DNA of 64,000 nt. It comes from Isoalcanivorax pacificus W11-5. Its GTDB lineage: Bacteria; Pseudomonadota; Gammaproteobacteria; Pseudomonadales; Alcanivoracaceae. This document shows, one piece after another, positions 6,336 through 51,256 of the stretch. The notes below the pieces were generated by a model. It worked only from the letters and a program-made list of their open reading frames with translations. It had not been told where the DNA came from and ran no database searches. Location of the stretch: assembly GCF_000299335.2 (NCBI RefSeq), contig NZ_CP004387.1, positions 3,860,994 to 3,924,993 of the forward strand. The letters run 5' to 3'. Both the position numbers and the translations under genes were made by a program. Positions within the stretch are counted from its first letter, which is position 1. Each line of letters begins with the position of its first letter.

Positions 6336-7270
6336 ACATCACCCCGTGCGCGCGCATGCTCGACGTAATAACGGAACGTCTGCTCGGAGCTTTTCTCCGG
6401 CAGGTAACCAAATTCTTCCTTCAGGCGACGGTTGCTCAGCACGGGCCGGTAGCGCAGGAAGTTGACCTGCTCGGGGCCATAACGGCCGATACCGAGGTGT
6501 TTGCCCAGCCACAGCACACTGCGTATCAGGCCCGGCGACAGCGTCAGCACCGGTTTGCCGAGGATGTCTGCAATCTGGTGGATGGTGAGCGCGCCATCAC
6601 CTGCCATGTTGTAAATGCCGGCAGCGTCTTCACGGATGCCCAACTCCATGGCACGGATCACATCCCCGTCCCAGATAAACACGAACGGTGAATCACTGCC
6701 CTTGATGGCCAGCAAACGTTTTTTGGCGAACAGGTGGGTAATCAGGTTGCGTGTGTGCGCACCGAGAATGGTGCCGGGACGGAAGATCAGTTGTTTCAGT
6801 TGCGGGTATTCCTGGCGAAACTCCGCCAGCATGGTTTCGATCTGGCGCTTGTGATCGGAATAGGGAAACTCCGGGTTGCCGCGCAGGGCATCCTGCTCAT
6901 CGATCCAGTCCGGATTGTCGGGATAGTAACCATAGGCAGCGCCGGAGCTGGTCACGGTGATATGGGAGACGCCCGCCCGCACGGCACTGATCAGCACGTT
7001 GCGGGTGCCGTTGACGTCAATGTCATAGTCGCGGGCACGGTCGCCGCTGGCATCCAGCACCGATGCCAGATGCACCACGTGGGTAATTTCCTCGCGCTCC
7101 ATCAGTGCCTGGATGGCGCTGTCGCGCACGTCCATTTCTTGCACTGCAAACGGCAGGTCATCGCGGCGGCGGATATCGGTGCCGACGACGTTGAAATCTG
7201 CCGCCAGCCGGGTGCCCAGCAGGCTGCCCACATAACCTGCCGCGCCAGTGATCAGGATATTCTTCTGCAT
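6332..7270 (-). CDS. Extended SDR, NAD-dependent epimerase/dehydratase family
   Basis: This 312-aa protein opens with ITGAAGYVGSLLG, the extended-SDR Rossmann motif. It carries a catalytic Ser in TSSGAAYG and the YSDHK Tyr-Lys motif. Such proteins include sugar epimerases and 3-beta-hydroxysteroid-type dehydrogenases. With no sugar pathway nearby and a bile-acid-type symporter and a monooxygenase in the same operon, a hydroxy-lipid or terpenoid substrate is more plausible than a nucleotide sugar, but this is inference. Confidence 0.85.
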   Translation of the reverse strand: MQKNILITGAAGYVGSLLGTRLAADFNVVGTDIRRRDDLPFAVQEMDVRDSAIQALMEREEITHVVHLASVLDASGDRARDYDIDVNGTRNVLISAVRAGVSHITVTSSGAAYGYYPDNPDWIDEQDALRGNPEFPYSDHKRQIETMLAEFRQEYPQLKQLIFRPGTILGAHTRNLITHLFAKKRLLAIKGSDSPFVFIWDGDVIRAMELGIREDAAGIYNMAGDGALTIHQIADILGKPVLTLSPGLIRSVLWLGKHLGIGRYGPEQVNFLRYRPVLSNRRLKEEFGYLPEKSSEQTFRYYVEHARARGDV

Positions 7271-7285
7271 CGGTAAGCTCCGGGT

Positions 7286-8188
7286 TCAGGCTGTGCGGAC
7301 GTCGCGTGTGCGCGACCAGATTGACGCCAGGGTCAGGCCGGAGACCAGGTGCCAGACACCCCAGAAAGCAGTGATCAGCATCATGCCGCCAGCCTCGGGG
7401 AAGAAGGTGAACAGTATCACCAGCCCCAGGCCCGAGTTCTGGATACCGACTTCCAGCGTCACCGCACGCCGGTCTTCCAGCGGCAGCCGTAACAGACGCG
7501 CCATACCGTTGCCGAGCGACAGCGCGAGCAGGTTGTGCAGCACCACCAGCCAGAAGAAGGTATGAAAACGCTCCAGGAACAGGTCCACATTGTTGCTGAA
7601 CGCAATGCCGACAAAGCCAAGAAAGACCACCAGGGCAAAAATGCGCAGCGGTTTTTCGCTGCGGGCGGCAAAGCCGGGAAAGCGCTTACCGACCCACATG
7701 CCCAGCATCAGCGGCACCCCCAGCACCAGCAGGACCAGTACCAGAATGCTCAACGGATCAAGGGAAATGCTGGTCAGCAGTTCGCGCGTGTTCGGGTTCA
7801 GGTAACCGTAGAGCGCAAAATTCATCGGCGTCAGCACCGTGGCCACCAGGCTGGAGACGGCCGTCATGCTCACCGACACCGCCACATTGGCTCGCGCCAG
7901 CCAGGTCATCACGTTGGAAAAACTGCCGCCGGGGCAGGACGCCACCAGGATCATGCCCAGCGCCAGTTCCGGGTCAATATCCAGCGCCCAGGTGGCCAGG
8001 CAGGTAGTCGCCGGCAGCAATATGAACTGGGCAAACAGGCCGGCCAGTGGCGCCACCGGGGCAATCAGAATGCGGCGGAAATCTTCTGTCTTCAGCGTCA
8101 GTGACACGCCGAACATCATGCACGCCATGATGACGTTGAGCATGATCAGGCTGGCAGGGTCAAAATGAATCGGCAGTGGCCCTGACAT
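7286..8188 (-). CDS. Bile acid:sodium symporter-family transporter
   Basis: This 300-aa membrane protein of the BASS family has about nine to ten hydrophobic helices. Family features are the LVASCPGGSFSNVMTWLA segment in the first half and LEVGIQNSGLGLVILF in the second, which form the crossed-helix sodium and substrate site. These proteins import organic anions such as bile acids or 2-keto acids with sodium. Its start codon shares a base with the stop of the monooxygenase gene, so the two are translationally coupled. Confidence 0.88.
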   Translation of the reverse strand: MSGPLPIHFDPASLIMLNVIMACMMFGVSLTLKTEDFRRILIAPVAPLAGLFAQFILLPATTCLATWALDIDPELALGMILVASCPGGSFSNVMTWLARANVAVSVSMTAVSSLVATVLTPMNFALYGYLNPNTRELLTSISLDPLSILVLVLLVLGVPLMLGMWVGKRFPGFAARSEKPLRIFALVVFLGFVGIAFSNNVDLFLERFHTFFWLVVLHNLLALSLGNGMARLLRLPLEDRRAVTLEVGIQNSGLGLVILFTFFPEAGGMMLITAFWGVWHLVSGLTLASIWSRTRDVRTA

Positions 8189-9522
8189 CAGCGCGCACCC
8201 GCCACGCGCTGACGCGCCCGGGCCAGGCTGTGCTGTTCTTCCCGCATGGCCCTGATCTGCGCCAGCACCGCCTTGCGGTAACTGTCCTTGTGCACGTAAT
8301 AGGCCATCCGCTCCAGTTTCAGGTAATCGTAGCCGCCGTCCATCACGTTGCCGGCCTCGCGCCGTTTGGTCTCTTTCAGCCGCAGGGCCGCCGGCGAACC
8401 GTTGGCCAGTTGCCGGATATACAGCGCCGCCATTTCCGCCTGCTCATTACGCCCTTCCCACCCCAGGCCGGCGGCCTCGATCATGCCCATCATGAACAGG
8501 TTGTCGTAATCCGGATGGAACACATTCAGGTAAAGCTGTGGCGCCCCGGCGCCCTGTGGCCAGTTCAGGTGCTTACGATCAATGAAGGGATAATGCAGCT
8601 TGTAGCCGGTGGCGAGCAGGATGATGTCGTACTCACCCTCGCTGCCATCGGTGAAACACACCCTGTGCCCGTCGATCCGGGCGATATCGCGCCGCGCCTG
8701 AATGTCACCGTGGCCAAGGTGATGCAGGATCAGCGAGTTCATCACCGGGTGCGATTCGTACATGCGGTAATCCGGATCCGGCAGGCCATAGCTGGAGGGC
8801 TTGCCCATCACGAGCTTGATCAGCAGGCTGTCGGCCCACTGCTTGAGCCGGCGCGGCAGTTTCAGTTTGCCGAGCGTGTCGGTGGGCCGGCCAAGCAGGA
8901 ATTTCGGCAGGAAGTAATAACCGCGGCGCACGGACAAATCCACGCTGCGCGCATGGTGTACGGCGTCCACGGCGATGTCGGCGCCGGAATTGCCGCAGCC
9001 CACCACCAGCACACGCTGGTCACGGAATACTTCCGGCGAACGGTATTCGCTGGAGTGCATCACGCGCCCGGCAAAGTCGCCCGGCAACGTGGGAATGTTC
9101 GGATGGTGCAGGGTGCCGTTGGCAATCAGTACGCCATGGAAGCGGCGTGTCCGGGTAACGCCGTCGCGTTCGGAGGTGACCAGCCAGCCAGCGCCGTCCG
9201 GTTCCACGCTCAGCACGCGGGTGTTGAATTCAAAGCGACGGTACAGATCGAAGTGGCGGGCGTAGTCACGGAAGTAGGCGCGCATTGCGTCATGACGCGG
9301 ATAGGGCGCCACGTCGTCGCGCATGGGAAACTCCGCGAACTCGGTCATGGTCTTCGAGGATATCAGGTGCGCTGTCTCGTACATGGTGCTGTGCGGGTTA
9401 TCGATATCCCACAGGCCACCCACGTCATCGTTCAGCTCGAAGCCGGTAAAGGCGATGCCCTGCTTGTCCAGGTTGCGGGCCGTGGCCAGCCCCATCGGGC
9501 CGGCGCCGATTAGCGCGTACAT
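8188..9522 (-). CDS. Flavin-containing monooxygenase
   Basis: The 444-aa protein has an FAD-binding GAGPMGLATARNL at the N-terminus, a second NADPH-binding VVGCGNSGADIAVD near residue 180, and the LLATGYKLHYPF segment typical of flavin monooxygenases. It would insert oxygen from O2 into a nucleophilic or ketone substrate using NADPH. It is the first gene of a five-gene leftward operon and is divergent from an AraC regulator across 143 bp. It lacks the full Baeyer-Villiger fingerprint seen in the second monooxygenase at 27725. Confidence 0.88.
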   Translation of the reverse strand: MYALIGAGPMGLATARNLDKQGIAFTGFELNDDVGGLWDIDNPHSTMYETAHLISSKTMTEFAEFPMRDDVAPYPRHDAMRAYFRDYARHFDLYRRFEFNTRVLSVEPDGAGWLVTSERDGVTRTRRFHGVLIANGTLHHPNIPTLPGDFAGRVMHSSEYRSPEVFRDQRVLVVGCGNSGADIAVDAVHHARSVDLSVRRGYYFLPKFLLGRPTDTLGKLKLPRRLKQWADSLLIKLVMGKPSSYGLPDPDYRMYESHPVMNSLILHHLGHGDIQARRDIARIDGHRVCFTDGSEGEYDIILLATGYKLHYPFIDRKHLNWPQGAGAPQLYLNVFHPDYDNLFMMGMIEAAGLGWEGRNEQAEMAALYIRQLANGSPAALRLKETKRREAGNVMDGGYDYLKLERMAYYVHKDSYRKAVLAQIRAMREEQHSLARARQRVAGAR

Positions 9523-21131: not shown

Positions 21132-21250
21132 GCGGGTCTCCTGCGTTGGTGACGAGAAAGGTCTCCGACATTGAGGCAGGCGTGCCCACCTGGCAAGTGT
21201 CGGCCGCAGAGTTTTACCCGCCGTTACGTTAAAGGGCGGCTGCAACTGTG

Positions 21251-39067: not shown

Positions 39068-40423
39068 ATGGACTGGCAGACACTGCTCAACAAGGGCCGC
39101 CTGGGTGGCCGCGCGGCGAAAGACGAAAGCGGCCGCACCGCCTTTATCCGCGACCACGACAAGATCATTTTCTCCGGCGCCTTCCGCCGGCTGGCGCGCA
39201 AGACGCAGGTGCATCCGCTGGCCACCAATGACCATGTGCACAACCGCCTGACGCATTCGCTGGAAGTGTCCTGCGTGGGCCGCACGCTCGGCATCCGTGT
39301 CGGCGAACGGCTGGAGAAACGCAACCTGCTGCCGGCCCAGACCGGCGCCACCGATCTCGGCGATATCGTGCAGTCCGCGTGCCTGGCCCACGACATCGGC
39401 AACCCGCCGTTCGGTCATACCGGCGAGCGCGCCATCCGTGCCTGGTTCGGGGATCGCGGGGCGCACTATCTAGAGTGCCTGACGCCCGCCCAGGCCAGCG
39501 ACCTGCGCGTGTTCGAAGGCAACGCCCAGGGTTTCCGCATTCTCACCAAAAGCGAATATCACCAGTACGCCGACGGCATGCGGCTGACGTACGCCACGCT
39601 GGGCGCCTTTCTGAAGTATCCCTGGCTGTCTTCCACCAGTGAGGCCGAAGGGTGCCCGCGACCGCACAAGTACAGCGCCTTCCTGGCCGAAGCCGAGGCG
39701 TTTCGGGAAGTCTGCGCCGCCACCGGCCTGACATCGCTGGCCGCCGATATTCATGCACGCCACCCGCTCGCCTATCTGGTCGAGGCGGCGGACGATTTCT
39801 GCTACGCCATCATTGATCTCGAAGACGGCCTGGAAATGGACCTGCTGCACTGGGACGAAGTCCACGCGCTGTTGTCGCCGGCCATTCCCGACAGCGACGA
39901 AGTACGTGCACTGCTGCATTCGGATGTGCGCGTCGGCCGCAAGGCGGCGCTGCTGCGCGGCAAGATCATCGAGCGCTGCATCGAAGCCGGTGTGGAGGCG
40001 TTCATGGCCAACCACGACCGCCTGCTGGCCGGCAAGCTGGCCGGCGACCTGATCTCGCACTGCGAGCCGGCGGTGCGCAATGTGGTGGAAAATGCCAAGC
40101 AACTGGCCAAGACCAAAGTATTTGAACACCCGCGCAAGATCGAGCTGGAAATCGGCGCCTTCGAAGTGATCGGCACCCTGCTGGACGGCCTGATCGAGGC
40201 GGCGGTGAGCCATGCCCGCGACGACACCTCCAACTACCGTCACCAGCGCATCATCGACCTGATGGGCCGGCACAGTTTTCCGCCGGACCTGCGGCAGTTG
40301 CCGGAACATGAACGCATCTACCAATGCATGATGCGCGCACTGGATTTTCTCTCCGGCATGACCGACGACTATGCCACCTATCTGGCCAAGCAGTTTTCCG
40401 GCATGGCGGTGACGCGCTACTGA
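39068..40423 (+). CDS. dgt: Deoxyguanosinetriphosphate triphosphohydrolase-like protein
   Basis: The 451-aa HD-domain protein starts MDWQTLLNKGRLGGR. The metal-binding residues lie in HNRLTHSLEVS and CLAHDIGNPPFGHTGE. It hydrolyses dNTPs to nucleosides and triphosphate, controlling pool balance. The length and motifs fit the dGTPase type 2 branch, distinct from E. coli Dgt. The 3' end overlaps the convergent cyclotransferase-like gene by seven bases. Confidence 0.92.
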   Translation: MDWQTLLNKGRLGGRAAKDESGRTAFIRDHDKIIFSGAFRRLARKTQVHPLATNDHVHNRLTHSLEVSCVGRTLGIRVGERLEKRNLLPAQTGATDLGDIVQSACLAHDIGNPPFGHTGERAIRAWFGDRGAHYLECLTPAQASDLRVFEGNAQGFRILTKSEYHQYADGMRLTYATLGAFLKYPWLSSTSEAEGCPRPHKYSAFLAEAEAFREVCAATGLTSLAADIHARHPLAYLVEAADDFCYAIIDLEDGLEMDLLHWDEVHALLSPAIPDSDEVRALLHSDVRVGRKAALLRGKIIERCIEAGVEAFMANHDRLLAGKLAGDLISHCEPAVRNVVENAKQLAKTKVFEHPRKIELEIGAFEVIGTLLDGLIEAAVSHARDDTSNYRHQRIIDLMGRHSFPPDLRQLPEHERIYQCMMRALDFLSGMTDDYATYLAKQFSGMAVTRY

Positions 40424-40797
40424 GGCTCGCCCACCGTCGGGCGGGCGCGCACCCTGCGCCAGTTTCCGTGCGGCAATAGCCGCCCGCCTTGTGGCGGCTG
40501 CTTTTGGTAGTAGACCCAGGCCGGGCCGAAGGGGGTACGCAACTGCCGGCGCAGATAATCCACCGGGTAATCTTCCAGCCGGTCGAGCAACGCCAGGCCG
40601 GCCTCATCGACGCGATACATTTCGCCTTCCACGGCATACCGGCCACCGGGCACCAGCACCGGATACGCGCCCAGTGAAAACAGCCGGTAGCACGCAGGCG
40701 TGCGCCACGCGCCCAGGCAGGGCGCGCCGCGCAACCAGTGATGGTTCGCCTCGCCGGCAAGCAGCGTGCCGTAAACGAAAACACGATGAAAAGCCAT
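40417..40797 (-). CDS. Gamma-glutamylcyclotransferase (AIG2-like) family protein
   Basis: The 126-aa protein starts MAFHRVFVYGTLLAGEANH, with the YGTL substrate loop of the family. It has the catalytic-type Glu in VEGEMYRVDEAG. Such proteins release 5-oxoproline from gamma-glutamyl amines or peptides. The start at 40797 is preferred over 40839 because it gives the canonical N-terminus. Confidence 0.87.
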   Translation of the reverse strand: MAFHRVFVYGTLLAGEANHHWLRGAPCLGAWRTPACYRLFSLGAYPVLVPGGRYAVEGEMYRVDEAGLALLDRLEDYPVDYLRRQLRTPFGPAWVYYQKQPPQGGRLLPHGNWRRVRARPTVGEPQ

Positions 40798-40869
40798 GCG
40801 CGGGAGTGTCGCGCGACACCGCGCCCGCTCGCAAGCCATGTGCGAGCCGGGCGGGTGATCGTGGCCAGG

Positions 40870-42102
40870 TCAGGGAGTTTCGCTGAAGAACAGGTATTCC
40901 AGCACCCGTTCCTGCGGCAGGTAACCTTCCTCCGGCGCGTCATGGCTCACATGATAGGAGCTGTACACCACCTGCCCCTGCCCGTGACGGAACGTCAGCG
41001 TCAGGATCGCATCCGTGTTGCCGGGGAAACCGGCAGCGCTCACATCCGCCCGTACCAGTGGCGTCACCGCGCCGGGCACAGGTTGCGCCAGGTGCCAGCC
41101 GGAGAGCATGCCTTCTATCTGGATCTGTTCACCCGTGATGCAGTCACCGCCGGCACAGGTGACACCGCCCAGCCAGGTGGCCATGGCCGTATTCACCACG
41201 CGGGCGGTCAGCTCTCCGACACCCTCGCCCCAATCCTGCGCGGGCTGCAGATAGTCCGTGAAGCCCTCCAGCCAGACACTGGACTGGTCGGTGACATACA
41301 GGGCGCCGCCCTGGGACACATAACTGCTCAGCAGATCCCGCCAGCTGCCGGTGGTGGGTTCATCTGCGCCGCAGTTGATATAAATGATGTCGTACTCGTA
41401 CAACCGCACCTGGCCGTTGACCGTGCTGAACAGGGCGTCAACATCGGGATACTGGGATGGCAAGGCACCGTTGCCGTCGTACAGGTCGAATTTTTCAGTT
41501 CCCAGTTTCAGCGGCAGCGAGCGCGGCGCCACTTGCGTTGTGCGCGGTGCGTGAACATGGGCATGGCCCGCCCTGGCGGCAAGCCCGTCGTTGTCCTCCA
41601 CTTCACCCAGCCCCATTTTGGCGAGCAGGTATTCGATGTTGTCATAATCGCCCGTGACCACCGCGATGCGCGCCGCCCCCGCAGCGGTATCGGTCTTGAA
41701 TGCGACAGCACCGAGGGCCCCCGTGCTCTGCGCGGTAAAGCGCAACGGCTGGCTCAGCGTCCACGCTCCTTTCTCAGCGTGCAGGGTGCTGCCCGGCGGC
41801 AGACCGGTCACGTCGAAACTGAATTCGCCCGTGGTCCCGGAGCAAGTCCATTCGCTCTGTGTCTGCGGCGCCGGGCAGGCACCATTGTCAGCACCGCGTG
41901 GCAGTACGCGGGCCGATGCACCCGGAGATTCGATATATACGGTCGCGCCCGGAATGGGCGTCACACCATTGGGTGCGACAAGCTGTCCTGAAATTTCGCC
42001 AGTAAAGGCCACCAGCGGCGGCCCCGAAGGCCCACCACCACCGCCACCGCCACACGCCACCAGCAGCAGCGCAAACGTCATCCATAGTGCTGATCTGTAC
42101 AT
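40870..42102 (-). CDS. Lipoprotein with carboxypeptidase-regulatory-like and ThuA/GATase-like parts
   Basis: The 410-aa protein has a lipoprotein signal (LLLVAC, then a Gly-rich linker). A CarbopepD-like beta domain follows (about 35-130; GQLVAPNGVTPIPGATVYIES). The C-terminal ~250 residues read as a flavodoxin/GATase1-like domain (RIAVVTGDYDNIEYLLAKMGLGE, YDIIYINCGADE, GGALYVTDQ, YSSYHVSH). It lacks ELWxxDGT repeats. It is 22 bp downstream of the next lipoprotein gene and is probably its co-transcript. The role at the cell surface is unknown. Confidence 0.75.
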   Translation of the reverse strand: MYRSALWMTFALLLVACGGGGGGGPSGPPLVAFTGEISGQLVAPNGVTPIPGATVYIESPGASARVLPRGADNGACPAPQTQSEWTCSGTTGEFSFDVTGLPPGSTLHAEKGAWTLSQPLRFTAQSTGALGAVAFKTDTAAGAARIAVVTGDYDNIEYLLAKMGLGEVEDNDGLAARAGHAHVHAPRTTQVAPRSLPLKLGTEKFDLYDGNGALPSQYPDVDALFSTVNGQVRLYEYDIIYINCGADEPTTGSWRDLLSSYVSQGGALYVTDQSSVWLEGFTDYLQPAQDWGEGVGELTARVVNTAMATWLGGVTCAGGDCITGEQIQIEGMLSGWHLAQPVPGAVTPLVRADVSAAGFPGNTDAILTLTFRHGQGQVVYSSYHVSHDAPEEGYLPQERVLEYLFFSETP

Positions 42103-42124
42103 GATGCACTCCTTGCTTTTCGCT

Positions 42125-43495
42125 TTACGGGACGTAATAAGGTTCCCAGCCGCTACAGGCACCGGGACAGATATCCTGAACCAGCACAGTGCTTTCAAAA
42201 GTGCCTTCCGAGCGCCACAACTCGACGCCATGCGCGCTGTCCTCGGCCAGGAACATCAGGCGGTCATTCAGCACGAAAGGCGGGTTACCGTTATCCAGAT
42301 ACACGCTGGCATTCAGGATTTCTGCCACATCGCCACCGTCCTGCAGACGCCACATCACATGGCGCCCATCCCAGAGCGCACCGAAGTAGAGGCTGTCGCG
42401 GTAGATCACCGGCACATTCATGGCGCGCACGCTATTGCCATCCGTGTCACGGATTTCCACCGTTCCCGCCGCCGTGCCGTCTGTTCGCCACAGGCCGGAA
42501 GAGGTGCCGCCAGAGTAGGCTGCGAAGTAAAGCTGTCCTGCGTGCGCAATCAGCCATTGCGGATTGGACGAGTCGGCACCAGGCAGCAGGTCCAGCACGT
42601 TCTGCGTGCCTGCTTCCGTGCCATCGCTTTTCCATATCTCTGTACCGTGCTCGCCATCATTGGCCCGGAAAAACAGCAGATCGCCGGCCACGGTAAACCA
42701 TCCCAGGTTTGCCTGTTGCGCCAGGCGTATGCCGCGAACGCGTGTGGTGCCGTCCGCGGTACCGTCGCTCTTCCACAGCCCATACTCCGTCTCCACAATC
42801 GCCGAAAAATAAAGGCTGTCTCCCCAGGGAGTCAGGTTGGCCGGATAACTGCCATTCTGTGGTGCCAGCACCGCCACGGTACCTTCTGCAGTACCATCCG
42901 TTTTCCACAGGCCCGGCCGTCCAATGCAGCTGTTGATGGCAGAAAAATAAAGCGCCCCGTCAAACGCCGTCAGTGAAGCGGGGTGGCTGTTGCAGCTTCC
43001 CGGTGTCAGGTCAATGACCATCTGGGTGCCCGCCGGCGTTCCGTCGCTGCGCCACAGCTCCGAGCCATGCTCCTGTGTGGTCATGACGAAGTAGAGAAGG
43101 TTTTCCACTGCGGTGAGCTGATTCAGATAGCCCTCTGAGCCCGCCTGAACGAGCAGGGTCAGCCCATCATCGCTGCCATCCGTCACCCAGAGGTTTTCGC
43201 TGTCAGCATCCCAGGCGGTAAAGAAGGTACGGCCCCCGATCTGAGTGATATTTTCCGGATAGGAGGCCGCTTCCGCCGAGACATCATGTACCCGTGCAGT
43301 CCCCTCGGCGGTGCCGTCCGTACGCCAGAGTTCCCAGTCTTCCTGGTCACCACCAAGGTGCGAACCCGAAAAATAACGGTACTGCGTCACCTCTGGTTCA
43401 TCACCTGAATGACGCGCTCCGCCACCGCTGCCTCCACAGGCAGCCAGCGTGCACAAGGCGCCGCATGCCAGCGCCATCAATAGCGTTCGTTGCAT
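42125..43495 (-). CDS. ELWxxDGT-repeat lipoprotein 1
   Basis: The start at 43495 follows AGGA and gives a 456-aa lipoprotein (lipobox LAAC, then GGSGGG). Repeats of about 45-50 residues carry ELWRTDGTAEGT-like cores (ELWRSDGTPAGT, LWKTDGTAEGT, LWKSDGTADGT, EIWKSDGTEAGT and others), as in the ELWxxDGT repeat family, suggesting a beta-propeller. Two cysteines spaced C-x21-C and a terminal DICPGAC are shared with its three paralogues. A 19-bp dyad lies upstream at 43575-43593. Confidence 0.8.
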   Translation of the reverse strand: MQRTLLMALACGALCTLAACGGSGGGARHSGDEPEVTQYRYFSGSHLGGDQEDWELWRTDGTAEGTARVHDVSAEAASYPENITQIGGRTFFTAWDADSENLWVTDGSDDGLTLLVQAGSEGYLNQLTAVENLLYFVMTTQEHGSELWRSDGTPAGTQMVIDLTPGSCNSHPASLTAFDGALYFSAINSCIGRPGLWKTDGTAEGTVAVLAPQNGSYPANLTPWGDSLYFSAIVETEYGLWKSDGTADGTTRVRGIRLAQQANLGWFTVAGDLLFFRANDGEHGTEIWKSDGTEAGTQNVLDLLPGADSSNPQWLIAHAGQLYFAAYSGGTSSGLWRTDGTAAGTVEIRDTDGNSVRAMNVPVIYRDSLYFGALWDGRHVMWRLQDGGDVAEILNASVYLDNGNPPFVLNDRLMFLAEDSAHGVELWRSEGTFESTVLVQDICPGACSGWEPYYVP

Positions 43496-43574
43496 GAATC
43501 TCATCCTGAAATAAAGTGTGTTGATACGAGTTACGATCACGCGGGGCAGACTATCGGCGGGAAACACCGGCCGC

Positions 43575-43593
43575 CCCACCCCGACAAGGTGGG
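43575..43593. promoter_or_regulatory. 19-bp dyad upstream of lipoprotein gene 1 (site a)
   Basis: CCCACCCC-GAC-AAGGTGGG, six of eight arm positions paired. It lies 80 bp upstream of the lipoprotein start at 43495, between two genes of the array, and matches the shared consensus. Confidence 0.55.
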
Positions 43594-43601
43594 ACGTGCC
43601 G

Positions 43602-44945
43602 TCAGTAACCGTTGCACGGGCCCGGACAGAGATCCTGAATCATGACCGTGCCCTCCGGCGTGCCGTCCGTGCGCCACATTTCGCTGCCATACTGATCATG
43701 CAAGGCGCTAAACAGCAGCCATCCGTTGACCTGCCGGTACTGGCTGATCGAGGAGACCAGCGGATCGTTCAGCAACTGGAGCGTGCCTGCCGGCGTGCCG
43801 TCCGTGCTCCACAAGGACCTCTGACCGGCGTGTTCGACCGTGAACAGAAAACGATCGCCATACGCCCGGATATTGTAAATATCCCCGGGGCCGACAATGG
43901 CAGGGTCTGTCACTCTGTGCGTGCCTTGCGCCGTGCCGTCAGTACGCCAGACGGCCTGCCCCTCCCCGTCGTCGGCGGCGAAATATCCCACGCCATCAAT
44001 GGCCGAAAAACTGAAAGGGTTCGACGATGCCGCACCCTCCGCGATATCGCGCACAAGGGAAGCACGCCGGCCCGTCTCATCGACACGGTACAGCTCGACA
44101 CCTTCGTCCCGGTTTAACGCCGCGAAGAACAATGACGCCCCCAGGCGCCACAGGCTGTAATGCACCTCGGCCTGGGTGCCCTGTTCATCCACCACGACAG
44201 GGTAGGTCTGCTCCGCCGTACCGAACGAGACCCACAGCTGGCTCCGCCCGTCCCGTTGTTCGACGAAAAAGACGCGCTCAGCCACATTTTCCAAACGGCT
44301 GATGTAACCTTGCGTCTCATAGAGTTGCACCGCTGTGCCGGTGCTCAGGTCCAGCCGCCATGGCACGCGCGGCCCCTCGCATTCCGCCCGTGCCAGGAAA
44401 TAAATGATGTTGCCTGCGCCATGCACATCGCCTGGCGCACTGCTGCAACCCGCAGGCACCAGATCCACAAGCTGCCGTGTCCCCGCAGCGGTGCCGTCAC
44501 TGCGCCACAGTTCGTTGCCGCTCTCACCGTCGTTTGCGTCGAAATAGACCACACCCTCAATCAGGTAAAGCGAATCGATCCCTGCGTGTGATGAGCCGGG
44601 GCGGATGTCCCTGACCATCCGGGTGCCCGAAGCTGTGCCATCCGACGTCCAGAGTTCACGACCATGAACACCATCATCGGCCACGAAGAAGCCGGTGCCG
44701 GCCATCCAGCGTTGCTCGGTTACACTCTTGCTAACACCACCAGAGGCGTCGTTCAGATCCCGCAGCAGCCGTGTGCCGGCCATCGTGCCGTCGGTCTGCC
44801 ACAGCTCCCAGTTCCGCACCGGTTCCGGCGCAGTGTTCCCGGCAAACAGGATGTATTCTGTTCTGGCACCGGAGCCGCCACCGCCGCCCCCGCAAGCGCT
44901 CAAAAAAGCCGCGGACACCATCATCCCGATCATGCATCTTTTCAT
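43602..44945 (-). CDS. ELWxxDGT-repeat lipoprotein 2
   Basis: This 447-aa paralogue has the lipobox LSAC at 14-18, then GGGGGGSG. Repeats such as ELWQTDGTMAGT, ELWTSDGTASGT, ELWRSDGTAAGT, AVWRTDGTAQGT and EMWRTDGTPEGT can be read throughout. The C-x21-C pair (AGC...AEC) and the terminal DLCPGPC are conserved. Function is unknown; cell-surface or extracellular interactions are likely for such propellers. It has its own upstream gap containing a weak dyad. Confidence 0.8.
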   Translation of the reverse strand: MKRCMIGMMVSAAFLSACGGGGGGSGARTEYILFAGNTAPEPVRNWELWQTDGTMAGTRLLRDLNDASGGVSKSVTEQRWMAGTGFFVADDGVHGRELWTSDGTASGTRMVRDIRPGSSHAGIDSLYLIEGVVYFDANDGESGNELWRSDGTAAGTRQLVDLVPAGCSSAPGDVHGAGNIIYFLARAECEGPRVPWRLDLSTGTAVQLYETQGYISRLENVAERVFFVEQRDGRSQLWVSFGTAEQTYPVVVDEQGTQAEVHYSLWRLGASLFFAALNRDEGVELYRVDETGRRASLVRDIAEGAASSNPFSFSAIDGVGYFAADDGEGQAVWRTDGTAQGTHRVTDPAIVGPGDIYNIRAYGDRFLFTVEHAGQRSLWSTDGTPAGTLQLLNDPLVSSISQYRQVNGWLLFSALHDQYGSEMWRTDGTPEGTVMIQDLCPGPCNGY

Positions 44946-45023
44946 GCTTATCCACTCGACATGTCATAAGGGACGCGATATGCATCCATGCCGCGCAGCC
45001 TATGCTGTGCCGGTTCGCATCAC

Positions 45024-45042
45024 CCCACCTGACAAGGATAGG
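45024..45042. promoter_or_regulatory. Weak 19-bp dyad upstream of lipoprotein gene 2 (site b)
   Basis: CCCACCTGACAAGGATAGG shares GACAAGG and outer CCC/AGG with site a, but the arms pair poorly (about five of eight). It is 78 bp upstream of the start at 44945, the same distance as site a from its gene, which is the main reason to keep it. Confidence 0.35.
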
Positions 45043-45157
45043 TTCAGCAGCGATTAACCTGCTGAATGACAAGCGCTCCACTATGCCTTCAGGAAAACGG
45101 TGTAAACCGGACAGGCCGCCAGCAGCGAATCTGCACAGAAGGAGGCGTTAGAGAATA

Positions 45158-45186
45158 CGCCCCACCACGCGAGCGGGGCGCTTTTT
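45158..45186 (+). terminator. Plus-strand terminator without an obvious gene
   Basis: CGCCCC (45158-45163) pairs with GGGGCG (45175-45180), followed by CTTTTTC. The T-run is on the plus strand, whereas the flanking genes are on the minus strand, so it may end a small RNA transcribed from about 45050 onwards. Confidence 0.45.
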
Positions 45187-45242
45187 CAATCATTTTCCAT
45201 CGACCCTGTTGAGCGCTCGATGGCACGTTCACGGAGGGCCGA

Positions 45243-46583
45243 TCACATGGGTCCGTCGCAAGGTCCCGGGCAGATATCCTTGATCAGCACGGTGCCTTCG
45301 TCAGTACCGTCGGTGCGCCATATTTCCCGGCCGTATTCCTGGTGTGGCGCATCGAATATCAGCTGACCGTAGACCACGCCCAGCAGGGTCGGCACCCCGA
45401 AGCCGGCCTCGGCGGCCACGCGCCGGCTGCCTTGCTCGGTCCCATCACTCAGCCACAGCTCACCATTGCCCGCCGCGATGGCCACCAGATGGTCGCCGTA
45501 CACCGCCAGGGTCCGCCATATTTTCCGGGGCAGCACGCGCCATGTACCAGCCTGCGTACCGTCCGTCCGCCACACTTCCGGTTGTGAACCGGCGACACTG
45601 TGCGCAAGGAAATAGGTGATCTCGCCCAATGTGACGAACTGCTCCGGCAAGCTGTCTTGCTGGCCTTCAAGAATATCCAGGGTCTGCAACGCGTCTGTCA
45701 CCGGGTCATACCACCAGAGCTCTTCACCCTGCGCGTCCGTTCTGGCAGTAAAGAACAGGTGGTTGTAGCCGCCGGACAAATTGTTGATATAGCGTATGCC
45801 CGCCATTTCACCGCCCAATAACAGCCGCGTGCCCTCTGCGGTGCCGTCGGATTGCCACAGGCTGTACTCGCGACTGGTCGACGTCACCCAGTAGACGTGC
45901 CCCTGCCAGACCTGCGTCATGAACACGTTCTGCCGGTCAAAATCCAGCCCCTCCAGCCGGTAGGTGCCCTGTTCCGTCCCGTCACTGCGCCACAGCGATG
46001 GCCAGGTTTCACAGCTATCCCTGACCCAGAACAACAGGGTGTCGCCCACGACCGTCAGCGCTCCGGGCGCCCCCTCGCAAACCCCCGGTGCGATATCCTT
46101 CACCAGCCGGGTCCCCGCCGGCGTTCCATCACTGACCCACAGCTCACGGCCATGCACGCCGTCGTCGTGTGTGAAGAACAGTTGCTCGCCCATCAGCGTC
46201 AAGGACAGTGGCGACACCACATCAGGGCCCGGATGAATATCCCCCAGCAGGATCGTGTTCTTCCCGGCGCCGTCGGTCACCCAGACCTCTGGACCATGCA
46301 CGCCGTCACTTGCAACGAAGAAAGTGCGCCGACCGGATTGTGTAATGCTGACGGGACGACTGCCGCCGCTCTCTGCGATCTCGTGAACGACCCGCGTCCC
46401 GCTTTCCGTTCCATCCGTACGCCAGAGTTCTGCATTGAGATAGTTATCAGTATCCGTAGCCGTGAAAGGCAGATAATCACGTTCCTCAACCGGTGGCGAT
46501 GCATTCCTGCCATCGCTTCCACCGCAGCCATACAACACTAGGGTCATGCCCGCCAGAAAGGCTGGCCGTACTTTACGCATCAT
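45243..46583 (-). CDS. ELWxxDGT-repeat lipoprotein 3
   Basis: Started at 46583, the 446-aa paralogue has the lipobox VLYGC, then GGSDGR. It carries repeats such as ELWRTDGTESGT, ELWVSDGTPAGT, LWRSDGTEQGT, LWQSDGTAEGT and EIWRTDGTDEGT. The C-x21-C pair (PGVC...DSC) and the terminal DICPGPC are identical in spacing to the others. A start at 46607 is also possible. It is 49 bp downstream of lipoprotein gene 4, so the two are probably one transcript. Confidence 0.8.
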   Translation of the reverse strand: MMRKVRPAFLAGMTLVLYGCGGSDGRNASPPVEERDYLPFTATDTDNYLNAELWRTDGTESGTRVVHEIAESGGSRPVSITQSGRRTFFVASDGVHGPEVWVTDGAGKNTILLGDIHPGPDVVSPLSLTLMGEQLFFTHDDGVHGRELWVSDGTPAGTRLVKDIAPGVCEGAPGALTVVGDTLLFWVRDSCETWPSLWRSDGTEQGTYRLEGLDFDRQNVFMTQVWQGHVYWVTSTSREYSLWQSDGTAEGTRLLLGGEMAGIRYINNLSGGYNHLFFTARTDAQGEELWWYDPVTDALQTLDILEGQQDSLPEQFVTLGEITYFLAHSVAGSQPEVWRTDGTQAGTWRVLPRKIWRTLAVYGDHLVAIAAGNGELWLSDGTEQGSRRVAAEAGFGVPTLLGVVYGQLIFDAPHQEYGREIWRTDGTDEGTVLIKDICPGPCDGPM

Positions 46584-46632
46584 TATCCCGTCCCGGTTTA
46601 TTGTCATGCCTCTGCTGGGTAGCAACGTTTTT

Positions 46633-48000
46633 TCACAGATGACCGTTACAACGGCCGGGGCAGATATCACTGATGATTTCTGCAGTGCCGAGTAACGTAT
46701 CCGAGCGCCACAGCTCCTGGCCCAGCTCATTGGTGTAGCCGATAAACAGCAGCTCATCGTTGAGGGCGAGCATGCCGAACCCTAATGCCGGCGAAAGCCT
46801 CTGTTGAAGACAGCCGTGAGCACCTTGTTCCAGATCGACACGGCACAGCCGCCGCACCATGTCTTCTGCCACCATGAAGAAATACAGCACGCCTTCATGA
46901 TCAAAGTGCAGGGCCGGTGACGAAAATCCGGTCGCCGGCGGCTGGTAGACTTCACGCGCCACCGCTTGCGGGCTGTCCACCGCCCAGATACGGTGCGCAC
47001 TGCTGAGTACCGGCGCGACATACACCAGCTTCCCGGCTGCCGCCCGCACACTCTGGAATTGAGTACTGCCTGGCCCCGGCGTTTTGTTTTCCACCATGCG
47101 CGTGCCGGCGAAGGTGCCATCCGTCACCCACAGTTCTCTGCCATGCGTCGTCTCCGTGGCAACGAAGTAAAGGTGATCCCCGACGCGTGTCAGGTATTCA
47201 AAAATAGCCAGGTCACCCAGCGCGGGCAGTTCCAGCAGAAGCGTGCGGGCGCCGTCCACCGGATCAATGGCAAGCAGCCGATGGCTGCTGCCCTCTCGCA
47301 CAGACACGACCCAAAGACCGCGCAGCACAACCGGTTCGCCACGCGAAGAACCACTCAACGCCCACAGCGCCGTGGCGTCATTGCGGGTGGTATCCAGACG
47401 TACCAGCGTCTGTGTGCCATTGCAGTCAACGTCACCGAAGAACATCAGATAGCCTGCGACCACACGCAGGGCTTGCGGATTTACCGGGCAACCCGACGCT
47501 GTCAGGCCGTCGATGCGCGCGGTGCCCTCCGGCGTACCATCACTGGCCCACAGGTCACGCCCCTGGTCGGCGGCCGCAGAAAAGAAAATCCTCGCATCCA
47601 GCTCCACCATGTCGCGCACGTCGTACGGGCCGGCATACAGGGCGCTGTGTATCGCAGACGTACCCTGCGCAGAGCCATCCGTCACCCACAGCCCCGCCCG
47701 CTGGCCTGCTTGAGCACCCGCGAGATAGTGCCTGTCCGCCAGCAGCGTGGTCTTTGCGATCAGTGTTGTGGTGCCAAAATCAGGCATCAGACTGTCATGG
47801 ACACGCACCGTGCCAGGCCCGGTGCCATCAGTGCGCCACAGACGCGCCGGCTCGCCACCGGCTTCATGCGCGGAGAAAAATACAACGTCCCGCTGTTCCG
47901 GTGGTGGTGGCGCCATGCCGCCTTCCCCGCCCGAACCACCTCCGCCGCCGCAGGCGGCCAATAACATCCCCCACAGCACAATCACCGCTTTCCCCGCCAT
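46633..48000 (-). CDS. ELWxxDGT-repeat lipoprotein 4
   Basis: Started at 48000, the 455-aa protein has lipobox LLAAC, then GGGGGSGG. Repeats are more diverged (LWRTDGTGPGT, LWASDGTPEGT, ELWVTDGTFAGT, ELWRSDTLLGT). The C-x21-C pair and terminal DICPGRC are kept, and an extra Cys pair is present (RRLC...HGC). It is the first gene of the array downstream of the divergent LuxR regulator, with a dyad 63 bp upstream of its start. Confidence 0.8.
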   Translation of the reverse strand: MAGKAVIVLWGMLLAACGGGGGSGGEGGMAPPPPEQRDVVFFSAHEAGGEPARLWRTDGTGPGTVRVHDSLMPDFGTTTLIAKTTLLADRHYLAGAQAGQRAGLWVTDGSAQGTSAIHSALYAGPYDVRDMVELDARIFFSAAADQGRDLWASDGTPEGTARIDGLTASGCPVNPQALRVVAGYLMFFGDVDCNGTQTLVRLDTTRNDATALWALSGSSRGEPVVLRGLWVVSVREGSSHRLLAIDPVDGARTLLLELPALGDLAIFEYLTRVGDHLYFVATETTHGRELWVTDGTFAGTRMVENKTPGPGSTQFQSVRAAAGKLVYVAPVLSSAHRIWAVDSPQAVAREVYQPPATGFSSPALHFDHEGVLYFFMVAEDMVRRLCRVDLEQGAHGCLQQRLSPALGFGMLALNDELLFIGYTNELGQELWRSDTLLGTAEIISDICPGRCNGHL

Positions 48001-48062
48001 CCATCCCCCGATATCGATCACCTCAGCAGGTGCCGACTCTATCGCCCGGGGATGTGGCACAC

Positions 48063-48081
48063 CCGACCCCGTCAGGGTAGG
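48063..48081. promoter_or_regulatory. 19-bp dyad upstream of lipoprotein gene 4 (site c)
   Basis: CCGACCCC-GTC-AGGGTAGG pairs at six of eight arm positions. It lies 63 bp upstream of the lipoprotein start, 29 bp from site d. Confidence 0.6.
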
Positions 48082-48103
48082 TTGCCCCGGTATGACATCC
48101 TGC

Positions 48104-48136
48104 GCAGCACCCTACCCCGACGGGGTAGGGTGCTGC
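48104..48136. promoter_or_regulatory. Perfect dyad upstream of the LuxR-type regulator (site d)
   Basis: GCAGCACCCTACCCC (48104-48118), centre GAC, and GGGGTAGGGTGCTGC (48122-48136) are perfectly paired over 15 bp. The core CCTACCCC-GAC-GGGGTAGG (48111-48129) is the best match to the consensus. It is about 54 bp upstream of the regulator start and is a likely autoregulatory operator. Confidence 0.75.
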
Positions 48137-48182
48137 GGTAACAGTGGATTTATATTCCCGGGGTGGGCTAGATTCTCGGCAG

Positions 48183-49322
48183 ATGGCCCCGCCCGACACG
48201 GAATTCCGAGCCATGACCGACGCCACCCGCCGGCGGAAAGCGTTACAACGCATTCGCCGCCTTGCCTGCCTGGATATCAGCGGGCCTCAATTGGCCCCGC
48301 TTCTGTTACGGGAATTGCGGGATGTGCTCTATTTCGATTCGGCGGGATACTTCTGGCGCAACGAACACGGTGCCACCGACCTGTTCATGGACGACCAGGC
48401 CGTCATTGATCTGCTGCCCCTGTATATGGACGACTACATACAGAAGGCGGAACGCGAGGCCGGGCGCTCCTTCGAAGAGGGCCTGCGCGAGGACTTCGGC
48501 CCTATCCGCACCGAACAGATGATCAAGCTGCCGCTGCGTCAGTTTCTTCGCCACGACTATTACAATCTGATCCTGCGGCCGATGGGCCTGAACCAGTGCG
48601 CCAGCCTGGTCCCCCGCCTCGCGGGCGGGCGCCCCACCGGCGCGCTGAAACTGTACCGGCGTGACCCGCGTCATCACTTTACCGATGACGAAATGCGCCT
48701 TTTCGGCGCGCAGGAACGCTACCTGGCCGACGTGCTGGATCACACCGCCGCAGGCCATGAACAGGATCTGGTCAACGACGCCATCCTGGTCACCACACTG
48801 GATGGCGAGTTGCAATGGATATCCGATCAGGCCCGGCAGATTCTTTCGCTGGCCTTCAGCAGCCGCTGGCACCAGCACAGCAGCAACCTGCCCGGCATGC
48901 TGCGTTTTCTGTTGAAAAAACTGTCGCAACTGAGCAACGGCCGTGAAGCACAAGGTTTGCCCCACGCCGCCATCACCACGCCACACGGCCGGTTTGTGTT
49001 CAAGGCACGCCTGATGGTCTCCACCACCGGCCAGGACAATGTGGCCGGCATTCGCGTCGAACATCATCGCCCGCGCCATTTACGCGTGCTGGAAGCCCTG
49101 CGCGACATGCGCCTGCCGCCACAACAGTCGGAAACCTTCTACTGGCTCAGCCAGGGCTTCTCCGAACAGGACATTGCCCAGCGCATGCAGATCAGCATCA
49201 ACACCGTGGTCTATCACCGCCGCCAGCTGTATGCCCGTTTCGGTGCCGCCAACCGCCGTGAGCTGCTCTCGCAACTGGACATCGCGATACAGACCACCTC
49301 GCCACAGGCCATCATTCGCTGA
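48183..49322 (+). CDS. LuxR-type HTH transcriptional regulator
   Basis: The 379-aa protein has an N-terminal GAF-like region (about 20-180), a PAS-like middle (about 200-300; DAILVTTLDGELQWISDQARQ) and a C-terminal LuxR HTH (about 310-370; SETFYWLSQGFSEQDIAQRM, then ISINTVVYHRRQLYARF). It is not an acyl-homoserine-lactone-binding LuxR by sequence. Starts at 48183 and 48213 are both possible. It is divergent from the lipoprotein array and behind the best copy of the shared dyad. Confidence 0.88.
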   Translation: MAPPDTEFRAMTDATRRRKALQRIRRLACLDISGPQLAPLLLRELRDVLYFDSAGYFWRNEHGATDLFMDDQAVIDLLPLYMDDYIQKAEREAGRSFEEGLREDFGPIRTEQMIKLPLRQFLRHDYYNLILRPMGLNQCASLVPRLAGGRPTGALKLYRRDPRHHFTDDEMRLFGAQERYLADVLDHTAAGHEQDLVNDAILVTTLDGELQWISDQARQILSLAFSSRWHQHSSNLPGMLRFLLKKLSQLSNGREAQGLPHAAITTPHGRFVFKARLMVSTTGQDNVAGIRVEHHRPRHLRVLEALRDMRLPPQQSETFYWLSQGFSEQDIAQRMQISINTVVYHRRQLYARFGAANRRELLSQLDIAIQTTSPQAIIR

Positions 49323-49806
49323 GCTGCTGCACACGGCTTCCCAGCGCCCGCATGTAGTCTGCATTCGCTTCAAAAAAGCGCACGTTCTCCAGCGGCGCGC
49401 CACTGCGCTCAATCATCCTGTCACGCTCCGCCGGCGAAGCATTCTGCAACATGGCGGATGCCATGCCGGCCTGCAGCCAAGACATCAGGCAGAGCGCAAA
49501 TTCATCGACACTCAGGCCCGCCTCTTCGATGGCCCGGCGCAGCGCCGGCCGCGAGCGGTACAGGTCGGCAATATCGCTGATGCTCTCTGCGTCCTCGCGG
49601 TCCTCTTCCGTCAGCAGCCCCGCATCGCTCTGCATCACGTCAGCGAGGTTGGCTATTGCAGCGTCCATTTTCTTCAGCACCGGCATGCTCAGCCGGTAAC
49701 TGGCCAGCCGCGCCTCATCCGGCTGCGCATGCGCCGCCGACAGACCGGTCACCAGCAATATGACCGTAATGATCAGGCTGCCCATTGAAGCGGTTTTCAT
49801 TGCCAT
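49312..49806 (-). CDS. Exported hypothetical protein, possible member of the dyad regulon
   Basis: I do not recognise this 164-aa protein. A signal peptide (IITVILLVTGLSAAHA, cleaved near residue 28) is followed by an all-helical mature part of about 135 residues rich in Glu, Asp, Ala and Met, with one Cys. The start follows GGAG eight bases upstream. It overlaps the regulator end by 11 bp on the opposite strand. Its promoter region carries a copy of the dyad found before the lipoprotein genes. Confidence 0.75.
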   Translation of the reverse strand: MAMKTASMGSLIITVILLVTGLSAAHAQPDEARLASYRLSMPVLKKMDAAIANLADVMQSDAGLLTEEDREDAESISDIADLYRSRPALRRAIEEAGLSVDEFALCLMSWLQAGMASAMLQNASPAERDRMIERSGAPLENVRFFEANADYMRALGSRVQQLSE

Positions 49807-49858
49807 ATCGAGATCTCCATCCGATACGGCCAGTGTAGGGACGCCGCCAGGCCGATAC

Positions 49859-49877
49859 CCCACCCCGCCAGGGTGGG
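49859..49877. promoter_or_regulatory. 19-bp dyad upstream of the exported 164-aa protein (site e)
   Basis: CCCACCCC-GCC-AGGGTGGG pairs at seven of eight arm positions. It is 53 bp upstream of the start at 49806. Confidence 0.65.
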
Positions 49878-49990
49878 CGGCGCTTTACCGAATTTTGCAT
49901 TTTAAACACTGCTTTAAGTGAGCCGGGCAGCCCCGCTGTGTACTCTCAGAGATCCCGACCCCACACATCCATATGTAGAAGGGAGATCGC

Positions 49991-50533
49991 ATGAGCACGA
50001 AACAGCCTTTTCTCACCGACATCCAGACCCTCCGCGACCGGGCACGCCAGCATATCGAGCAAGGCGCGGTGACCGCCGGTTACCAGGCGGATCGTGAAAC
50101 GGTGCTGAAACTGCTCAATGAAGCCCTCGCCACCGAGATCGTCTGCACGCTGCGCTACAAGCGCCACTACTACATGGCCGACGGTCTGAGCGCGAGCATC
50201 GCAGCAGCGGAATTTCTCGAACACGCCCAGCAGGAACAGCAACACGCCGACTGGCTGGCCGAACGCATCGTGCAACTGGGCGGCGCACCGAATTTTTCAC
50301 CGGAAGGTTTGCAGGCACGCTCGCACGCCGAGTATGTGGAAGGCGATACATTGCGCGAGATGGTGAAGGAAGACCTGATCGCCGAGCGCATTGCCATCGA
50401 CAGCTATCGGGAAATCGCCACCTACCTCGGTGACAAGGACCCGACTACACGGCGCATCATGGAAGATATTCTGGCGCAGGAAGAAGAACACGCCGACGAC
50501 ATGGCGGCGATCCTGGAAGCCCTGCCGGCCTGA
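49991..50533 (+). CDS. Bacterioferritin-like ferritin-family protein
   Basis: The 180-aa four-helix protein has ferroxidase-type ligands: Glu in LATEIVCTLRYKRHYY, Glu-x-x-His in EHAQQEQQHADW, Glu in DLIAERIAIDSY, and EEEHADDMAA. The start follows GAAGGGAG. Bacterioferritins store iron as ferric oxide; haem binding by a central Met cannot be decided here. A strong hairpin follows the gene. Confidence 0.87.
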   Translation: MSTKQPFLTDIQTLRDRARQHIEQGAVTAGYQADRETVLKLLNEALATEIVCTLRYKRHYYMADGLSASIAAAEFLEHAQQEQQHADWLAERIVQLGGAPNFSPEGLQARSHAEYVEGDTLREMVKEDLIAERIAIDSYREIATYLGDKDPTTRRIMEDILAQEEEHADDMAAILEALPA

Positions 50534-50540
50534 GCAGCAT

Positions 50541-50568
50541 GACGGCGCCGGGCCTGCCCGGCGCCGTC
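50541..50568. terminator. Bidirectional terminator between bacterioferritin-like gene and lrgB
   Basis: GACGGCGCCGGG (50541-50552) pairs perfectly with CCCGGCGCCGTC (50557-50568) around loop CCTG. The genes converge on it. There is no T-run on the plus side, so its efficiency is uncertain. Confidence 0.55.
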
Positions 50569-51256
50569 ACACAAACAGCCACACCAGCACCGGCCCGGCC
50601 GCCAGATTGAGCAGCCCCATCAGCACCATCACCAGCCCGGCCACAGTCCCTTCCTCACCACCCACTTCCCGCGCCCGCGCCACCCCGGCACCGTGCGCAC
50701 CAACGCCAAACAACGCCCCCCGCGCCAACGCGGTTTTCAACGGCAGCCAGCGCAGCAACACGCCACCGCACAAGGCGCCGAGCACGCCGGTCAGCATCAC
50801 GAAGATGGCCGCCAGCTCTGCCACGCCGCCCAGGCTTTCCGCCAGCGGCATGGCAAACGGCGTGGTCACGGAACGGGGCACCAGCGAGCGGCTGATCTCG
50901 CCATCCAGCGACAGCAGGCTGGCCAGCCACCAGGAACTGCCCACCGCCACCGCACTGCCCGCCAGCATGCCGCCGAGCAGCGCCAGCCAGTGCCGTGCCA
51001 GCAGGCGCCGCTGCTGCCAGATCGGCACTGCAAACGCCACCGTGGCCGGGCCAAGCATCAGCGCCAGGTAGTGCGCATCGGCGGCATAGTCCGCATAGCG
51101 CACATGCAGCGGCACGGCCACCGCCAGCAGTACGGCCGGTGTCATCAGCAGCGGCGACAGCAGATAGCGCGGCCAGCGCCGGTACAGCGCCCGGCTCACC
51201 GCATAGGCCGCGACCGTGAACAGCAGCCAGAACAACGGCACGGCATCAAGCGTCAT
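50567..51256 (-). CDS. lrgB: LrgB/CidB-family membrane protein
   Basis: Started at 51256 after GGAG, the 229-aa protein has about seven helices and LrgB motifs LGPATVAFAVPIWQQRR, VTTPFAMPLAE and FGVGAHGAGVARARE. With LrgA it forms a holin-like pair affecting murein hydrolase activity or pyruvate/glycolate transport. It overlaps lrgA by 11 bp and is controlled, by context, by the divergent LysR regulator. Confidence 0.9.
   Translation of the reverse strand: MTLDAVPLFWLLFTVAAYAVSRALYRRWPRYLLSPLLMTPAVLLAVAVPLHVRYADYAADAHYLALMLGPATVAFAVPIWQQRRLLARHWLALLGGMLAGSAVAVGSSWWLASLLSLDGEISRSLVPRSVTTPFAMPLAESLGGVAELAAIFVMLTGVLGALCGGVLLRWLPLKTALARGALFGVGAHGAGVARAREVGGEEGTVAGLVMVLMGLLNLAAGPVLVWLFV

Follow-up and report, generated by a model that had tools for sequence, protein, structure and literature searches.

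We found that the gene starts of a lipoprotein locus in the marine bacterium Isoalcanivorax pacificus W11-5 share a 19-bp dyad that lies at one fixed distance from a -10-like hexamer. The locus, which comprises four ELWxxDGT lipoprotein genes, a gene for a GerE-domain (LuxR-type) regulator and a gene for a small exported protein, is contained in a 64-kb stretch of contig NZ_CP004387.1 (positions 3,860,994 to 3,924,993; hereafter the window, analysed in full and used for the numbering of this locus). The complete genome consists of one contig of 4,168,427 bases, and a sister locus in Alcanivorax sp. S71-1-4 is given in the coordinates of its own stretch, L026. Read from the sequence, the arrangement is probably best explained by a local, self-activating LuxR-type activator working at lux-box-like promoters. 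The sites, their fixed spacing, their direction towards the genes, their conservation in a second species and the clustering of the strong sites are present in the DNA, and binding of the dyads by the local regulator, with activation from them, is what we infer.

The 19-mer CCNACCCCGNCRRGGTNGG was found without mismatches at 43575, 48063, 48111 and 49859, exactly where a preliminary description of this DNA had placed four strong dyads, and the weaker form at 45024 was likewise recovered. The core common to the four strong sites is CCNACC-N7-GGTNGG. The motif formula previously given was right in its positions and slightly too strict in its letters, as the site at 43575 has AAGGTGGG on the right. 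Direct reading of the sequence confirmed that the dyad at 48111 is perfect, with 15-bp arms. The five dyads are as follows.

43575..43593, minus strand: dyad of lip1, 0 mismatches, counterpart at L026 6683
45024..45042, minus strand: weak dyad of lip2, ranked 18th by dyad score alone, but with TANNNT at +22
48063..48081, minus strand: dyad of lip4, 0 mismatches, weaker counterpart at L026 9524
48111..48129, plus strand: dyad of the regulator gene and putative site of its autoregulation, without mismatches on either strand, identical at L026 9571
49859..49877, minus strand: dyad of the small exported protein gene, 0 mismatches, counterpart at L026 11320

With up to three mismatches to the 19-mer, 17 strand-wise matches were observed in the window, compared with a mean of 4.87 and a largest count of 14 in 100 shuffles, a comparison that is partly circular because the consensus was built from the sites themselves. 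In a leave-one-out matrix test over the 64 kb, which is not circular, each strong site ranked third or fourth and was outranked solely by other strong sites. The distance from the end of the dyad to the start codon is 80 bp for lip1 (71 to the other in-frame ATG), 79 for lip2, 63 for lip4 and 53 for the small exported protein gene, in agreement with the range of 53-80 bp reported earlier; for the regulator the range is less secure, as its start is uncertain and the distance is 54 (ATG 48183) or 84 (ATG 48213). The gene pairs lacking a dyad between them are 22 bp (lip1-lip0) and 49 bp (lip4-lip3) apart, as had been stated.

A hexamer of the form TANNNT, which resembles a -10 element, starts exactly 22 bases past the last dyad base on the gene side (a 21-nt spacer) at all nine sites, five in the window and four in the sister locus, and at none of the nine on the opposite side, while TANNNT has a background rate of 0.27-0.28% per position across the window. 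This fixed distance between dyad and TANNNT is a new result that goes beyond the preliminary description. The predicted -10 elements of the window are listed below; the sister-locus hexamers at +22 are TACGCT, TACTGT, TATATT and TAGGCT.

43548..43553, minus strand: predicted -10 of lip1, TAGTCT, +22 from the last dyad base
44997..45002, minus strand: predicted -10 of lip2, TAGGCT
48036..48041, minus strand: predicted -10 of lip4, TAGAGT
48151..48156, plus strand: predicted -10 of the regulator gene, TATATT
49832..49837, minus strand: predicted -10 of the small exported protein gene, TACACT

In a post hoc comparison with random quintets drawn from the same intergenic regions, in which TANNNT has a rate of about 1%, none of 20,000 quintets had four or more members sharing an offset in the range 10-54, and 13 had three. 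If TANNNT is the -10 element, the dyad would extend from -52 to -34 and be centred at -43. No -35 element was found at any of the nine sites, where the sequences at spacers of 16-18 nt match TTGACA at 0-2 of 6 positions.

Comparisons with the sister locus provide largely independent support for the regulon. An orthologue of the regulator is present in two of the 46 family genomes, W11-5 included, the other being Alcanivorax sp. S71-1-4 (G035), which was also the sole other carrier in an order-wide scan of 390 genomes (E<=1e-12, with scoring limited to five candidates per genome). A scan of genome contigs gave one locus, in Alcanivorax sp. S71-1-4, and a plasmid search with the regulator gave no match. 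When the matrix from the window was run over 19 kb of the sister, the three strong sites of the sister were the top three places. In the lip1, lip4 and small-protein promoters, 21 of the 63 spacer bases are identical between the two loci and the spacer length is unchanged, and 29 of the 30 bases of the dyad arms and 9 of the 9 T-A-T positions of the -10 are identical. The spacing of the regulator promoter is uninformative because the spacer (21/21) and the downstream bases (42/43) are nearly all identical; upstream, the 19-mer of the 48111 dyad is identical in the sister and the outer arm is not (9/30 upstream bases identical). The sister lip1 dyad overlaps a longer, second inverted repeat at L026 6677-6702, in which CCCACCCC and GGGGTGGG are eight bases apart.

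The strong form of the motif clusters in the locus. A 21-letter form with at most one mismatch occurs at four places in the W11-5 genome, all of them in the locus, and with three mismatches it shows no excess (strand totals of 52 and 36, compared with 37 and 46 for a reversed control). The random spread through the genome that had been named earlier as speaking against a regulon was not observed: the exact core lies at eight places in the 4.17-Mb genome, four of them in the locus, and at eight in the sister genome, three of them in its locus. Five congeners lacking the regulator have 4-6 exact core places each, scattered. The core is not enriched genome-wide, because the reversed control pattern gives 16 places against 8 in the same genome (9-16 across the genomes scanned), and it is the clustering in the locus that is unusual. 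When the perfect dyad was turned into a symmetric probe, 22 places matched with at most two mismatches, including four in the locus; as the reversed control gave 16, the non-locus places are background at that looseness. TANNNT at +22, in either direction, was found at none of 26 non-locus places in both genomes (21 in W11-5, the union of exact core and symmetric probe, and five exact-core places in the sister); two of the 26 have TANNNT at +23 or +24 instead. The looser 21-letter matches that were checked were those, among the matches listed, within four mismatches of the symmetric probe. A palindromic outside place at 163323 was rejected as a target, as it has no TANNNT at this spacing. A few weak extra targets may exist elsewhere in the genome.

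A matrix built from seven strong sites gave 50 strand-wise 19-mers scoring at least 2 in the window. TANNNT at +22 accompanies six of them, namely 21185 (5.3), 45024 (2.5) and the four strong sites. The weak dyad-like sequence at 21185-21203, with TACGTT at +22, is probably a chance match, since the plus-strand open reading frame (ORF) downstream of it overlaps a minus-strand ORF that was judged by eye to be the real gene. A partial match at 44188 was also rejected; it lies inside the lip2 coding DNA and has no -10.

The regulator is 369 amino acids long. Its C-terminal GerE domain scores 38 bits against a cut-off of 23.5 and is present in all seven aligned members, its own sequence included, and the profile of its helix-turn-helix (HTH) matches chains of CviR, VpsT, RhlR, NarL, VraR, EsrB and FixJ. 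The suggestion in the preliminary description that the dyads mark the lipoprotein locus as a regulon is supported by this HTH, by the lux-box-like position of the dyad relative to the -10, by the clustering of the motif and by the sister locus. In the mechanism proposed here, the LuxR-type protein encoded at 48213-49322 would bind the 19-bp CCNACC-N7-GGTNGG dyad, probably as a dimer, and the bound dyad would be centred at about -43 at five promoters, those of lip1-lip0, lip2, lip4-lip3, the regulator gene and the small exported protein gene. Once bound, the regulator would take the place of the -35 element in recruiting RNA polymerase, in the manner of LuxR at the lux box (class II activation), and it would activate its own gene through the dyad in front of it. 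A signal may be sensed by the N-terminal part of the protein. PMC3376562 gives the lux box as an inverted repeat of 20 bp with its centre at -42.5. The system described here resembles that of LuxR at the luxI lux box in the position of the inverted repeat (about -43 here, with start sites predicted from TANNNT), in the GerE-type HTH and in the lack of a -35 hexamer at the sites. We favour the local activator because it explains the direction, the spacing, the missing -35, the conservation and the clustering in the locus together.

Several observations weigh against a local activator. The site at 45024 ranks 18th in the leave-one-out test over the 64 kb, and with the seven-site matrix it scores below the outside place at 21185, both having TANNNT at +22; similarly, the weak sister lip4 site at L026 9524 has TANNNT at +22 and scores slightly below an unrelated place at 1339. 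Loose forms of the motif show no genome-wide enrichment over the reversed control, and the offset comparison is post hoc because it was inspection of the two loci that revealed the spacing. The regulator is limited to two species (2/46 family genomes), so that joint change of regulator and sites provides no test. The eight loci searched around the regulator's distant relatives have no dyad of this sequence, and the TATGGT found at +22 from a palindrome in one of the relatives' loci (L138) is one match over 13 loci against a mean of 0.27 per offset, which is within chance. The GAF match of the regulator is marginal (22.8-24.1 bits in the two orthologues, with a cut-off of 22.4), five distant relatives have no GAF match at E<=0.01, and the structure prediction has 291 of 369 residues below a predicted local distance difference test (pLDDT) score of 50, so that it is usable only at the HTH. 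Unlike the 20-bp lux box, the dyad here is 19 bp long, GC-rich and odd, with a central base.

Three other explanations were considered. The same regulator could act at the same sites as a repressor, whose dimer would cover the -35 region and block RNA polymerase until released by a signal. The dyad does extend into the position of the -35 region, and PMC5601948 reports repression by LuxR for ainS that requires a lux box lying across a putative -35 element. However, no -35 hexamer is present at any of the nine sites, and the spacing is invariant in 9/9, whereas a repressor would be expected to work from varying positions and on a self-sufficient promoter; we regard repression as unlikely. Less likely still, the dyads could be bound by another protein encoded elsewhere, with the adjacent LuxR-type gene merely one of its targets. 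This would fit the lack of this dyad near the distant relatives, and binding by the local protein is itself a prediction; in addition, the section of PMC4338825 on LuxR solos names Alcanivorax pacificus W11-5, and if this is the same strain, a further LuxR-type protein would be encoded elsewhere in the genome. Nevertheless, the strong sites cluster in both genomes at the locus that encodes the regulator, and the five congeners that lack it have scattered core matches only, which makes a distant binder improbable.

The dyads might also be RNA hairpins (terminators or processing signals) or members of a mobile repeat family, as they are GC-rich inverted repeats outside genes and the one at 43575 lies between two genes of the same direction. 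We consider this very improbable: the 17 terminator-like sites detected in 40300-50600 all lie away from the dyads, the dyads are upstream of the predicted -10, the outer arm at 48111 is not conserved while its 19-mer is, and the core is not a dispersed repeat. The local activator is retained as the preferred explanation, and the genes that it would control, its own gene and the dyad-less lip0 and lip3 included, are listed below.

40870..42102, minus strand: lip0, lipoprotein-like ORF (judged by eye), 22 bp 3' of lip1
42125..43495, minus strand: lip1, ELWxxDGT repeat lipoprotein (TIGR04534, 2.5e-98), second in-frame ATG at 43504
43602..44945, minus strand: lip2, ELWxxDGT lipoprotein (TIGR04534, 5.7e-88)
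45243..46583, minus strand: lip3, ELWxxDGT lipoprotein without a dyad, 49 bp after lip4
46633..48000, minus strand: lip4, ELWxxDGT lipoprotein (TIGR04534, 4.5e-42)
48213..49322, plus strand: LuxR-type regulator (Pfam GerE 1.2e-9; GAF 1.5e-4, marginal), start taken from alignment with relatives
49312..49806, minus strand: small exported protein, apparent signal sequence (judged by eye)

All four ELWxxDGT lipoproteins score above the TIGR04534 cut-off (142-322 bits against 65). The structure prediction for lip1 is all-beta and propeller-like with a mean pLDDT of 81.6, and its closest folds by template modelling (TM) score over the query were sortilin Vps10p chains (0.52-0.56); LRP6 chains ranked first by E-value, yet their TM scores were below 0.31. 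These propeller-like lipoproteins may have a role at the cell surface. Pfam and NCBIfam gave no match at E<=0.1 for the ORF lip0, which is probably co-transcribed with lip1, and no family for the small exported protein. For the regulator, ATG 48183 and GTG 48144 are alternative starts, and the alignment of its relatives begins at ATG 48213. The sister locus has three ELWxxDGT ORFs compared with four in the window. Between window 42125-48000 and L026 5232-9434, DNA identity is about 69% over lip1, with short matches elsewhere, and the flanks are 86-90% identical; the ELWxxDGT genes read as fast-changing paralogues. At 49991-50533, a ferritin-like gene that diverges from the gene for the small exported protein is present in two of the seven genus genomes, W11-5 included, as is the regulator, and the block that carries both looks accessory.

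Matches to the regulator (E<=1e-7) were found in the class in seven of 369 genomes, W11-5 included, the six others being 27-31% identical. Five further loci were searched and also have no dyad of this sequence. As the loci of the distant relatives lack it, the operator is particular to this locus. Palindromes of other sequence with TANNNT at 21-23 in L138 and L149 were rejected as a shared operator, being within chance. The one at L138 4673-4691, AAAGCAGATGATCTGCGTT, with TATGGT at +22, lies in an exopolysaccharide-type cluster adjoining a relative and is a candidate operator of that relative. The neighbours of the relatives differ in the loci examined, an exopolysaccharide-type gene (YjbH) being found in L138, and in L142 (2612-10006) a relative lies near genes of the LodA type (L-lysine epsilon-oxidase) and for a flavin adenine dinucleotide (FAD)-oxidoreductase. 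In another genus of the family (L146, G005:C5:209000-224000, positions 5395-9344), an ELWxxDGT gene is located beside a protein with receiver and GerE domains and an ORF that by eye looks like a histidine kinase. ELWxxDGT lipoproteins may often adjoin LuxR/NarL-type regulators.

Unlike LuxR at the luxI lux box, the regulator has 369 residues, a marginal GAF match and no match to an autoinducer-binding domain (Pfam, E<=0.1). It shares the LuxR-type HTH with LuxR solos, which are defined in a section of PMC4338825 by the autoinducer-binding domain that was not detected here. Its C-terminal HTH matches NarL, VraR, EsrB and FixJ chains, as in NarL/FixJ response regulators, but no receiver domain was matched (Pfam, E<=0.1). 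No description of this regulator subfamily was found in the literature searched, and searches by name and variants found no function for, and no paper on, the ELWxxDGT proteins.

The locus looks like a private circuit that regulates itself, of a kind familiar from bacteria. It is possible, though doubtful, that the regulator represents an undescribed, scattered subfamily of GerE proteins of about 370 residues, each governing its own private circuit of exported or surface functions through a locus-specific operator that replaces the -35. Such functions would include the ELWxxDGT propeller-like lipoproteins here and the exopolysaccharide-type cluster and LodA-type oxidase beside the relatives, and the operator and a complete five-promoter regulon would then be readable directly at this locus. 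As the switch would be mechanistically of the familiar LuxR type, it adds to knowledge rather than overturning any. It would give a testable operator, promoter architecture and regulon for this regulator subfamily, and a handle on the timing of ELWxxDGT lipoprotein production.

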